Below the pieces are notes generated by a model. That model was not told where the DNA came from. It made no database searches and worked only from the letters and a program-made list of their open reading frames with translations. The position numbers were made by a program, and so were the translations under genes. DNA of 35,423 nucleotides from Anaerolineae bacterium (GTDB lineage: Bacteria > Chloroflexota > Anaerolineae > Aggregatilineales > JAFGMM01). Shown piece after piece: positions 1,594 to 35,423 of the stretch (positions are counted from its first letter, which is position 1; the number at the start of each line of letters is the position of its first letter). The DNA lies in assembly GCA_016927535.1 (NCBI GenBank), contig JAFGMM010000140.1, positions 1 through 35,423 on the forward strand. Direction: 5' to 3'.

Positions 1594-1828
1594 AGACTCA
1601 TCCCTCCGATAATTTCATGATTGATAAAGATGCGACCCTTGTCCACCGAAAGGGTGTGTTGAAACCAGCCTAAGTATAGTCGTGCCCTATAATTTGCCAA
1701 GTATACTGTAATTATGACAAGAATGGTAGCCATGATAACGATCCTACCGGGCGCCGGTAAAAAGCTGCCGGCTTTCCCGGCTTCGTGGTATCATGAGACG
1801 CATCCAGACAACAGTGAAGATCAAGGCC

Positions 1829-3601
1829 ATGATAATCCGCAAGATTACAGCATTTGCTCTCACCGGCCTGATTTTGATCGCGCTGTCGGCGCTCGTCGCC
1901 GCGCAAGACTCCGGCGTCCGGGCCGAAGCGCTCCAACAGGCCAACGTCCGCAGCGGCCCCGGCATCGACTACCCGCAAATCGGCAGCATCCGCGCCGGCG
2001 CGCAGTACCCGGTCATCGGCAGGCACGAGCTTTATCCCTGGCTGCTCATCGAGTTCGGCGACCCGGTACAGCCCGGCTGGGTCTTCGCCGACCTGCTGCG
2101 CGTCACCGGCGACCTGGGCGCGGTTCCGCTCCGGCCCGCCGATTACATCGACACGATATACGATGCGCCGCTCGCCGTCACGGTAACCCCGACCGGTACG
2201 CCGACCCCGGACGCCCTCCCCGGCGGCGTCTCGGAAGCTTCGCCGGCCGAGATCATGCAAACCCCAAACGCCCAACCCGCCGCGCAGCCGACCGCCGCAC
2301 CCACCCAGCCTCAAACCGGCGTCATCGCCCGGCCCATCGACAGCGCCAACCTGCGCTGTGGCCCCGGCACCGACTACCCGCGCGTCGGCACCATCTTCAA
2401 AGACGAGGCGTTCGCCGTGCTCCAGCGGCACGCCGGCTACCCGTGGCTGCAAATCAGCTTCCCCGCCTACCAAACCGGCGTCGCGTGGGTCTACCAGGAC
2501 TTGGTCGAAATCGAGGGTGATATCAACCTGGTCCCGGCGACCGCCAACCCGGTCATCGACTGCCCGCTCACCCCCACGCCGCCCGCCGTGGTCCCGGCCC
2601 AATCGCGCTGGGAGGGGCTGCTCCCCGCCGGCGATGGCGACCCCGGCACGCCGGTCGATATGGCGCAGTTGGGCGACGACGTGATGGAGTTTCTCTATTC
2701 GCAAAACTACATCCCGCGCACCGAGAAGCTGGCGTCGGCCTTTGGGTACGATTTGCAGACCGGGCAGGGTTTCTCGCTGTATCCGGGCGTCGCGTTCAGC
2801 GGCATGAGCCTGATCAAAGTCCCACTGCTCGTGACCTACTTCCGCCATCTCAACATGCCGCCCACCACCGACCAGGCCTATTGGATCACCGGCATGATGA
2901 CGTGCAGCAACAACCCATCGTCTAACGCCATTCTCAAAGATATGGGCGGCGGCAACCCCTACGTGGGCGCGGAGCGCGTCACCGAGACGATGCGCGAACT
3001 GGGCCTCCAGCACACCTTTCTCCAAGCGCCGCTCGTCGAAGACCCGGAGTTCGCCCAGAACCAGAACGTCACGCCCATCGTCACCACCGCCGACCAGGCG
3101 AGCACCAACCCTGACCCCTTCAACCAGACCACGATGGAGGATATCGGCTGGCTGCTCGTGGCGCTGTACGAGTGCGGGCAGCACGGGCGCGGCCCTCTGC
3201 TTGAGAAGATCGACGGGATCACACAGACCGAGTGCCGCCGCATCCTGTACGCGCTGGATGAAAACTACCTGGGCGCGATGATCGAGGCCGGCGTACCGGA
3301 TGATGTCACGGTAGCGCATAAACACGGCTGGACCACCGACGAGGATCACGCCGACGCCGCCATCGTCTTCAGCCCCGGCGGAAACTACGTGCTTGCCATT
3401 GCCATGCACAAACACCGGCGGCTCGACTACCAAGATGCGTGGATCAACATCGCGGAGATATCGCGGCTGGTGTACAACACCTTCAATCCCGGCGCGCCGC
3501 TGGACGCCATCCATCCCAGGACCGTGCCGGAGGAATGCGAGCTTGAGGGTCACCCGCTGCTCATCGCGCTGACGCAGGAGGAATTGCCGATGCTGGAGTA
3601 G
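1829..3601 (+). CDS. Secreted SH3b-domain protein with serine beta-lactamase-like hydrolase domain
   Basis: Signal peptide MIIRKITAFALTGLILIALSALVAAQ; two SH3b-like repeats (NVRSGPGIDYPQIG, NLRCGPGTDYPRVG); SxxK motif GMSLIKVPLL; KHGW near the C-terminal part. The ORF can start at 1793. Confidence 0.8.
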   Translation: MIIRKITAFALTGLILIALSALVAAQDSGVRAEALQQANVRSGPGIDYPQIGSIRAGAQYPVIGRHELYPWLLIEFGDPVQPGWVFADLLRVTGDLGAVPLRPADYIDTIYDAPLAVTVTPTGTPTPDALPGGVSEASPAEIMQTPNAQPAAQPTAAPTQPQTGVIARPIDSANLRCGPGTDYPRVGTIFKDEAFAVLQRHAGYPWLQISFPAYQTGVAWVYQDLVEIEGDINLVPATANPVIDCPLTPTPPAVVPAQSRWEGLLPAGDGDPGTPVDMAQLGDDVMEFLYSQNYIPRTEKLASAFGYDLQTGQGFSLYPGVAFSGMSLIKVPLLVTYFRHLNMPPTTDQAYWITGMMTCSNNPSSNAILKDMGGGNPYVGAERVTETMRELGLQHTFLQAPLVEDPEFAQNQNVTPIVTTADQASTNPDPFNQTTMEDIGWLLVALYECGQHGRGPLLEKIDGITQTECRRILYALDENYLGAMIEAGVPDDVTVAHKHGWTTDEDHADAAIVFSPGGNYVLAIAMHKHRRLDYQDAWINIAEISRLVYNTFNPGAPLDAIHPRTVPEECELEGHPLLIALTQEELPMLE

Positions 3602-24171: not shown

Positions 24172-24200
24172 TTGACTTTAGAACGGACGTTCTGTATAAT
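24172..24200 (+). promoter_or_regulatory. Sigma70-type lexA promoter: TTGACT (24172-24177), 17-bp spacer, TATAAT (24195-24200)
   Basis: Read directly; near-consensus hexamers with ideal spacing. Confidence 0.85.
24180..24193. promoter_or_regulatory. Candidate LexA operator 1, AGAACGGACGTTCT
   Basis: GAAC-N4-GTTC dyad in the lexA promoter spacer, next to the -10. Confidence 0.75.
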
Positions 24201-24206
24201 ATGAAT

Positions 24207-24220
24207 GGAACGAACGTTCT
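24207..24220. promoter_or_regulatory. Candidate LexA operator 2, GGAACGAACGTTCT
   Basis: Second GAAC-N4-GTTC dyad, 27 bp from the first, at/after the predicted transcription start. Confidence 0.75.
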
Positions 24221-24239: not shown

Positions 24240-24908
24240 ATGAGCAAGCTCAGCGCACGCCAAGAGGCGCTTTTAAAGTACCTGCGGCACTATATCCGTG
24301 AAAATCAGTATCCGCCAACCTACGAAGAAATGCAAGACGCGCTTGGCTTCAGCAGCAAGTCGCACGTCGATTACCATCTCAAGGTCCTCGCCCACAAAGG
24401 CTACATCGAGCAGGAGCCGGGCAAATCGCGCGGGATTCGCCTGACCGACAAAGGCTGGGGCGACCAGCACCCCATGCGCCCGTCCGGACAGGTGCGGCTG
24501 CCGATCTACGGTTACATCGGCGCGAGCCTGCCCACCTGGTCGGCGACCCAAAACGAGATGTCTCCCGATGAAGTCATCACCGTCACGCCCGATATCGTGC
24601 CCCGGCGCGACGACCTGTACGGGCTGCGGGTGCGCGGTGACTCGATGATCGACGCGCTGGTCAACGACGGCGATATCGTCGTGGTGTGCCCGCGCTGGAG
24701 CGGGCCGCTCCGCAACGGCACAATGGTCGCGGCCCGGCTGCTCAGCAGCGACGAAACCACGCTCAAGCACTTCTACCGGGGCGAGGGCAACACCGTCAGG
24801 CTGGTGCCGGCCAACCCGCACTACCGGGATATCATCGTCCCGTTGGACGATATCGAAATCCAGGGCTGGGTCGTGGCCGTCATCCGGCAGTACCAGGGGC
24901 AGGCTTAG
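24240..24908 (+). CDS. lexA: LexA repressor (HTH + S24 peptidase)
   Basis: MSKLSARQEALLKYLRHYIRENQYPPTYEEMQDALGFSSKSHVDYHLKVL; catalytic RGDSMID and TTLKHF. Confidence 0.95.
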   Translation: MSKLSARQEALLKYLRHYIRENQYPPTYEEMQDALGFSSKSHVDYHLKVLAHKGYIEQEPGKSRGIRLTDKGWGDQHPMRPSGQVRLPIYGYIGASLPTWSATQNEMSPDEVITVTPDIVPRRDDLYGLRVRGDSMIDALVNDGDIVVVCPRWSGPLRNGTMVAARLLSSDETTLKHFYRGEGNTVRLVPANPHYRDIIVPLDDIEIQGWVVAVIRQYQGQA

Positions 24909-34061: not shown

Positions 34062-34526
34062 TTACCACATCTCCGCTTCGTCTGCCGGCTCATCCCAGTA
34101 ATACACGTCTTCGTAGTCATCGTAGGGCGGCGTCACCACCTGCGGCGGAGGCAAGCGGCGCGCTTCCGGTGCGCCGTACAGCGGACGCGACCGAGGCTGT
34201 GCCGGCGGCAGCGGGCGGTAGCGCACCGCACCCCGACCCATCGACTGCTCGCGCCGGAGCATCGCCTCCAGCAGCTTGTACTTCTCGCGCTGGTTCAACA
34301 GATCGAAAACGGCGTCTTGGGTGCGGTCGTAGCGCTCGCGCTGCTCGGCATGAGTCCGGCCGGCGAACCACGCCAGCGCCGCCAGCGCCGGTACGGTGAC
34401 CACCAGCCCGACGAACACACCGAGCAGCATCCCCAGCGCATCGTCAGAAAGGCGGGCGAATGTCAGCACCGCCAGCACCAGCCCCACCACTACGACCATC
34501 ATCACGATTTTCTCTTTTACCGTCAT
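34062..34526 (-). CDS. Small two-TM membrane protein with coiled/charged and Pro-rich tail, unknown function; candidate SOS-controlled
   Basis: MTVKEKIVMMVVVVGLVLAVLTFARLSDDALGMLLGVFVGLVVTVPALAALAWFAGRTHAEQRERYDRTQDAVFDLLNQREKYKLLEAML...; promoter/operator described separately. Confidence 0.75.
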   Translation of the reverse strand: MTVKEKIVMMVVVVGLVLAVLTFARLSDDALGMLLGVFVGLVVTVPALAALAWFAGRTHAEQRERYDRTQDAVFDLLNQREKYKLLEAMLRREQSMGRGAVRYRPLPPAQPRSRPLYGAPEARRLPPPQVVTPPYDDYEDVYYWDEPADEAEMW

Positions 34527-34567
34527 GGCGCACCCCTTACACACGCAACCTGCCGTTTGTAAAAATC

Positions 34568-34596
34568 ATTATAGAACACATGTTCTTGACTGGCAA
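34568..34596 (-). promoter_or_regulatory. Promoter TTGCCA-17-TATAAT (minus strand) containing AGAACATGTGTTCT, a LexA-box-like dyad
   Basis: Plus-strand TGGCAA 34591-34596 and ATTATA 34568-34573; dyad AGAACACATGTTCT at 34573-34586. Confidence 0.65.
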
Positions 34597-34608
34597 GGGG
34601 GAATCCGC

Positions 34609-34678
34609 CACAGAGGGCACAGAGATTATCAAGAGAATTCTCTCAAATGCTCTGTGCCCTCTGTGTCTCTGTGGTGAA
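34609..34678. repeat. Dispersed inverted repeat CACAGAGGGCACAGAG...CTCTGTGCCCTCTGTG + TCTCTGTGGTGAA
   Basis: Perfect 16-bp arms 34609-34624/34650-34665; right arm extended matches 10008-10036. Confidence 0.8.
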
Positions 34679-34688
34679 AATCTCTTTC

Positions 34689-35423
34689 TTAATCCGGCGG
34701 CGCGGGCGTCTCCACGACGGGGATCGCTTCGATATCGCCGCCGACGATCACCACCGACGCGCCCACCCAGCGCCCCTCGCCGATGCGCAGCCAGAAGCCG
34801 TCGAGACTGCGCCCGTCGATCACCGCGCGCTCGCCGGCGCGGAGCAGTCCCACCTGCGGGTAGTTCGCGCCGGGACCGCTGCGCACAATCGCCGCCGTCG
34901 CCGCCTTGAGGGTGCCCGGCGCTAACGGCGCCTCAGTAGGAGCAGCCGTCACGCCGGCCGGCGGCGCGTCGTTCCCCGCGTCGCCGGTCTCGACGATCCA
35001 ACCCGCCACCCAGCGGTCCTCGCCGATGCGCAGCCACTCGGCGTCGATATCCGCGTCGTAGAAGCGGTCAAGAATCTGCGCCCGCGCGCCGGCCGCCAAC
35101 ACATCCACCTCTGCATAAACCATGCCGGGGCCGCTGCGCACCACCACCGCCACCGGCGCGCGCAGTTCATCCGGGCGCAGCGGCGCGCCGCCTTCCGCAT
35201 CCCCTGTGCTCACGGCTTCGCCGGCGCCCGCGCCGACATCGGCGGTCTCGACGACCCAGCCCGCCACCCAGCGATCCTCGCCGATCATCAACCATTCGCC
35301 CTGCACGTCGGCGTCATATGCCCGGTCGCGGATGTACGCATCCTGCCCGGCGCGCAGCGTATCGACCTGCGGGTAATCCATACCGGGGCCGCTGCGCACC
35401 ACCACCGCCACCGGCGCGCGCAG
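34689..35423 (-). CDS. SH3b-domain tandem-repeat protein, 5' end truncated by the window edge
   Basis: Repeats AVVVRSGPGMDYPQVDTLRAG / AVVVRSGPGMVYAEVDVLAAG / AAIVRSGPGANYPQVGLLRAG; 41-bp exact DNA repeat at a 258-bp offset. Confidence 0.8.
   Translation of the reverse strand: MRAPVAVVVRSGPGMDYPQVDTLRAGQDAYIRDRAYDADVQGEWLMIGEDRWVAGWVVETADVGAGAGEAVSTGDAEGGAPLRPDELRAPVAVVVRSGPGMVYAEVDVLAAGARAQILDRFYDADIDAEWLRIGEDRWVAGWIVETGDAGNDAPPAGVTAAPTEAPLAPGTLKAATAAIVRSGPGANYPQVGLLRAGERAVIDGRSLDGFWLRIGEGRWVGASVVIVGGDIEAIPVVETPAPPD

Follow-up and report, generated by a model that had tools for sequence, protein, structure and literature searches.

The stretch of DNA analyzed here (the window) comprises 35,423 nt from an Anaerolineae bacterium of the Chloroflexota (assembly GCA_016927535.1, contig JAFGMM010000140.1, positions 1 to 35,423). 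Close to its end, the minus strand encodes P0001, a 154-aa protein with two transmembrane (TM) helices (34062..34526; ATG at 34526, stop at 34062). Its promoter consists of TTGCCA (34591..34596) and TATAAT (34568..34573) on the same strand, separated by a 17-bp spacer, and holds the dyad AGAACATGTGTTCT (34573..34586), a putative LexA-type operator. An earlier note made from the sequence alone had described this arrangement correctly, as well as a protein with two N-terminal TM helices, a charged coil, and a Pro-rich tail, which the ORF and helix prediction confirm. Its wording that the dyad touches the −10 element holds for the adjacency but not literally, since the two overlap by one base, the first of the −10; the operator is thus placed where it could block the promoter. 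The hydrophobic helices of P0001 cover residues about 6-24 and 33-51 and are joined by the loop RLSDDALG, whereas the C-terminal part runs from the charged helix into a Pro-rich tail ending in DEAEMW. From the charge distribution, an N-in/C-in hairpin with both ends in the cytoplasm is predicted. A low-confidence AlphaFold model built with three sequences (mean pLDDT 63.8) places helices at residues 3-25 and 30-95 and leaves the tail disordered.

The plus strand of the window carries a bona fide lexA gene (lexA1; 24240..24908, 222 aa; TIGR00498 at 3.5e-46, PF01726 at 9e-22, and PF00717 at 2.6e-23). As the earlier note stated, the 17-bp spacer of its TTGACT-TATAAT promoter harbors the box AGAACGGACGTTCT (24180..24193). 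A second box that the note had missed, GGAACGAACGTTCT (24207..24220), lies 3' of the −10, and the lexA gene (L037) of G001, the sole other genome of the same family that was compared, is likewise two-boxed. Both genomes have a second lexA paralog, i.e., lexA2 at L020:261-932 on the minus strand in the window's genome (TIGR00498 at 3.4e-54) and L041 in G001. The P0001 operator and the lexA2 box share an identical 12-bp core, GAACATGTGTTC. GAAC-N4-GTTC is an established LexA motif in Gram-positive bacteria (PMC3323433).

The P0001 and lexA dyads both fit the 14-mer AGAAC-N4-GTTCT within 17-bp spacers, as had been noted. Across the 5.1-Mb genome, this strict form has 3 occurrences, two of them within the window, and a control pattern has 2. 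The core GAACN4GTTC is found 84 times genome-wide versus 47 times for the reversed-pattern control, and at this density the chance of a core per 60-bp promoter window is about 0.1%. The window contains 3 cores, against 0.45 expected, and no shuffle gave as many. For the two genomes, we retrieved 28 and 17 RNNY sites and read the surroundings of each −10. In the window's genome, perfect GAACN4GTTC boxes mark the promoters of lexA1, lexA2, ruvB, uvrA, ssb, and a radical-SAM repair gene, and recA has one-mismatch candidates only. The boxed genes of the two genomes plausibly form an SOS regulon. Many of the remaining RNNY sites are intragenic or lack a −10 and presumably represent chance occurrences. 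The core, the promoter placement, and the boxing of usual SOS genes (lexA, ruvB, uvrA) resemble the Gram-positive LexA regulon, from which this set differs by its two LexA paralogs and by a 2-TM/FtsK-like pair among its members.

Two homologs of P0001 in G001 allow operator conservation to be assessed across genera, at 41% identity in the TM region. The dyad persists ahead of both orthologs, with a perfect core beside each −10; one promoter reads TTGCCT-17-TACAAT and then AGAACACAAGTTCT, the other TTGCGC-17-TATAAT and then GAACATATGTTC. The boxes lie 3' of the −10 in both cases versus 5' in the window; the operator has therefore been kept while the layout changed. Together with the boxed SOS genes of these genomes and the LexA-boxed operons described below, this conservation strongly supports the proposed membership of P0001 in the SOS regulon. 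LexA control of the gene is well supported by these comparisons, from which we infer that LexA binds the promoter and that DNA damage induces it. Farther upstream, an imperfect inverted repeat, CACAGAGGGCACAGAG...CTCTGTGCCCTCTGTGG (34600-34690), separates the P0001 promoter from an ORF for an SH3-like repeat protein (34689-35423, minus strand) that runs past the window end and repeats VVVRSGPGxxYPQV units; similar units occur in an ORF at 1793-3601. A different dyad of similar style (CACGAAGCCACGAAG...) occupies the equivalent upstream place of the two G001 homologs (L002 and L007), and these inverted repeats look like a dispersed intergenic repeat or a terminator. No Rfam family was found in the window.

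The 2-TM proteins make up what appears, from these searches, to be an uncatalogued family. P0001 matched nothing above cutoff in Pfam or NCBIfam. Weak hits to DUF6338, LPG synthase TM, and SLATT_1 (E values of 0.001-0.015) fell below the cutoffs and were not shared by relatives, and were set aside, along with an identity as a SLATT defense effector, as generic TM similarity. A pattern-seeded scan of 84,980 species genomes with P0001 as the sole query came back empty because the protein is too divergent for pattern seeding; a three-sequence profile was needed. This profile, made from P0001 and the G001 pair, found matches in 165 of 396 sampled genomes of the class, the best at 1.6e-11. Conversely, an HMM built exclusively from proteins of other orders recovered P0001 at 1.1e-14 (Z=1000), compared with 0.27 for the best of 200 N-terminal shuffles. 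The relationship thus holds in both directions. Three further candidates (L004, L005, and L006; E values of 0.002-0.008) matched through low-complexity or unrelated stretches and were dropped. A PDB profile search returned nothing credible, and no viral relatives were found.

Exactly two TM segments are present in 42 of 43 family members. The proteins begin with a short, positively charged N terminus and a TM hairpin with an R-[LM]-S-x-[DE]-A loop, in which small residues of TM2 are conserved. Next come a basic stretch, in many cases a PPVVVV patch, and a Pro-rich linker, and most members end in R-x-F-x-V-x-G. The P0001 tail does not have this ending, as judged by reading the sequences; an R-x-F regular expression was not specific enough, its match in P0001 being a chance one.

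Across the class, the 2-TM gene almost always travels with an FtsK-like gene. In all 40 fetched class loci, it comes directly after a same-strand ftsK-like gene, with little or no intervening sequence. In 13 of these loci, ftsK is in turn preceded by one or two lexA genes, also on the same strand, and tandem lexA pairs are often seen in the class operons. At least one perfect GAACN4GTTC box lies at the ftsK or lexA 5' end in 28/40 loci. These 5' windows hold 52 perfect boxes in 23.7 kb, versus 11 in the remaining 453 kb, an enrichment of about 90-fold. Ten of the 40 loci have no perfect box with the ftsK 5' end fetched, several of them showing one-mismatch sites. Since the selection of loci relied solely on the 2-TM profile, the ftsK linkage and the boxes constitute independent evidence. 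The usual order is (lexA)-(lexA2)-ftsK-like-2TM, within one predicted LexA-controlled operon. Of 400 genomes sampled across the phylum, 16, mostly from the same class, encode the 2-TM protein, and almost all of these loci are ftsK-adjacent and boxed; many have a pair of boxes spaced by about 30 bp. Within the window's own order, the gene is present in 9 of 154 genomes from three families, with ftsK adjacent in the family that contributes six matches; its absence from most of the order indicates that it is dispensable. Two genomes from a different class-level lineage (L150 and L152) have, just 3' of lexA and with no ftsK, an ORF of about 380 aa that matches the 2-TM profile marginally (E about 6e-4).

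The class partner of the 2-TM protein is, by its predicted domains, a soluble FtsK-type alpha-beta motor. The ATPase of one relative contains FtsK_alpha (PF17854, 3.5e-11) and FtsK_SpoIIIE (PF01580, 1.5e-37) with intact Walker A and B motifs and no detectable gamma (DNA-reading) domain; the ATPase of a second relative has FtsK 2iuu (8.8e-46) as its nearest solved structure. Walker A and Walker B (DE) are intact in all 42 aligned copies from outside the window's family. The window carries the module in two parts, with lexA and the ftsK-like gene at 24.2-26.0 kb and the 2-TM gene, which has its own box, 8 kb beyond. The window's ATPase, P0003 (24934..25956, plus strand; PF01580 at 6.6e-22), is directly 3' of lexA. 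Alignment with 43 relatives shows that it has kept Walker A (GQEGAGKS) while its Walker B acids are replaced (VIVAVN), and the domain search detected no FtsK_alpha. G001 (L118) has the same lexA-ftsK order and the same Walker B lesion (VN). P0003 is thus probably a pseudo-ATPase retained beside lexA. PADLOC matches of the ATPase to SspH and mad8 reflect the common FtsK/HerA fold, and a defense role was rejected, no defense partners having been found.

We consider it reasonably probable, judging from gene order, domains, and operators, that P0001 is a LexA-repressed, damage-induced membrane anchor of a two-chain FtsK-type module, whose role in this family may have drifted. LexA bound to the operator would block RNA polymerase, and RecA-stimulated LexA cleavage upon DNA damage would free the promoter. 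The 2-TM protein would then enter the membrane as a hairpin of N-in/C-in topology, with a Pro-rich tail in the cytoplasm that would bring the soluble motor to the membrane or the septum, so that anchor and motor would do together what a TM domain, a Pro-rich linker, and a motor do in single-chain FtsK. Such a pair might pump DNA away from the septum or segregate damaged or entangled chromosomes. That the two proteins touch each other, i.e., that the 2-TM protein tethers the ATPase, is suggested by their gene linkage. More tentatively, and with the odds close to balanced, the class as a whole may possess a LexA-controlled two-chain FtsK that assembles at the membrane after damage, with the window's family as an offshoot that combines a pseudo-ATPase with an anchor under its own LexA promoter.

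Escherichia coli ftsK, whose dinH promoter makes it SOS-inducible (PMC4080785), is the known precedent for such control. Its product joins four TM helices, a Pro/Gln-rich linker, and the motor in a single chain (PMC5357621). The class module resembles it in placing an FtsK-type motor under predicted LexA control and in its set of parts, i.e., membrane part, Pro-rich linker, and motor. It differs in that the membrane part and the motor are two proteins, with two TM helices instead of four, in the lack of a detected gamma domain in the relative tested, and in that the 2-TM protein has no Pfam or PDB similarity; no homology to the four-TM FtsK N-terminal domain emerged from Pfam or NCBIfam. Bacillus subtilis SftA is a soluble FtsK-like translocase with a gamma domain and no TM domain that is recruited by FtsZ (PMC5357621). 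The class motor likewise has no TM domain, but it is linked to lexA and to a 2-TM gene, whereas SftA possesses a gamma domain, and that publication describes no gene for a dedicated 2-TM partner (PMC5357621). The SOS regulons of Chloroflexota are little described, and literature searches found no publication joining LexA, FtsK, and Chloroflexota, which is weak evidence of absence since subscription journals were thinly covered. If the interpretation is right, the conserved lexA-ftsK-2TM operon would mean that SOS control of an FtsK-type pump, already known as such, recurs in a phylum distant from E. coli, with anchor and motor on separate chains. The new part would be the separate, uncatalogued membrane protein. 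An unnamed family would thereby gain a testable role and offer a natural system for the study of FtsK anchor function apart from the motor.

The motor-anchor role may not apply in the window's family itself, where the motor is likely ATPase-dead, the 2-TM gene is unlinked, and the tail ending is lost. There, the pair might function in the absence of motor activity or rely on a different FtsK. Loss of Walker B, exit of the 2-TM gene from the operon to its own LexA promoter, and disappearance of the R-x-F-x-V-x-G tail occur together in this lineage. This correlated change, a single evolutionary event, fits the loss of a predicted tail-to-motor contact.

Alternatively, P0001 could be an SOS-induced checkpoint protein that blocks the divisome in the manner of SidA or YneA, a small SOS-induced membrane division inhibitor, and the ftsK linkage would then reflect a common septal location or timing. 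We regard this as rather unlikely. P0001 is indeed small and membrane-bound, its promoter is of the SOS type, and its family is linked to a septum-type motor; small membrane inhibitors induced by the SOS response do exist, such as SidA (PMC4211646). However, Pfam and NCBIfam returned no match between P0001 and known inhibitor families of the SidA/YneA/DivS type, and a DNA translocase partner, present in 40/40 loci, would be needless for a stand-alone inhibitor. With such a conserved neighbor and no inhibitor-family match, the checkpoint analogy finds no direct support. The family is strictly translocase-linked, unlike SidA and YneA, and the two TM helices and long Pro-rich cytoplasmic tail of P0001 also set it apart from DidA, which has a single TM segment (PMC4211646). 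DidA had been cited in the earlier note as an SOS-induced precedent; this was mistaken, as DidA is SOS-independent (PMC4211646).

Somewhat less probable still is that the module is decaying in the window's family, the 2-TM and degenerate FtsK-like genes being remnants with an inherited LexA box and no essential role. The loss of Walker B in the motors of both family members, to which that of the alpha domain can be added, the diverged 2-TM tail, and the absence of the module from most of the order would all agree with decay. Yet the P0001 ORF is intact at its full 154 aa, and both G001 copies of the duplicated gene retain operators at the changed position; together with the TM identity across genera, these kept operators suggest selection. 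The frameshifts in G001 look like assembly errors, as its lexA genes are frameshifted too.

That another regulator, e.g., a TetR-type repressor with a GAAC...GTTC operator, binds the P0001 dyad instead of LexA is very improbable: tetR-family genes of both genomes are preceded by GAACGAGCGTTC / GAACGAGCGTTCGTTC (L029, box at 1016; L040, box at 1038), so that the core is not exclusive to LexA, but the P0001 core equals that of lexA2, class operons repeatedly include lexA itself with matching boxes, and the motif is the established Gram-positive one. The tetR boxes are probably self-operators, and not every GAACN4GTTC in these genomes is therefore a LexA site.

Several other boxed genes accompany P0001 in these genomes. 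The product of the radical-SAM gene is a "putative DNA modification/repair" protein (TIGR03916). In both genomes (L024:3-950, minus strand; L034:1048-2001, plus strand), a LexA-type box adjoins the −10 of this gene, which is likely an additional SOS gene. The boxed ssb gene (L012:159-917, minus strand) specifies a 252-aa SSB with two OB folds per chain and the C terminus DDDEIPF. At L018:1080-1988 (plus strand), the box GAACATTCGTTC follows TATATT ahead of a protein of 303 aa that has several TM segments, ends in a Pro/Gln-rich tail, and matched no Pfam or NCBIfam family; it is possibly a further LexA-controlled membrane protein. Finally, a box at position 978 of L013 lies between a divergent N6/N4 DNA methylase gene and a pair named by eye as MntA-like nucleotidyltransferase/HepT-like.
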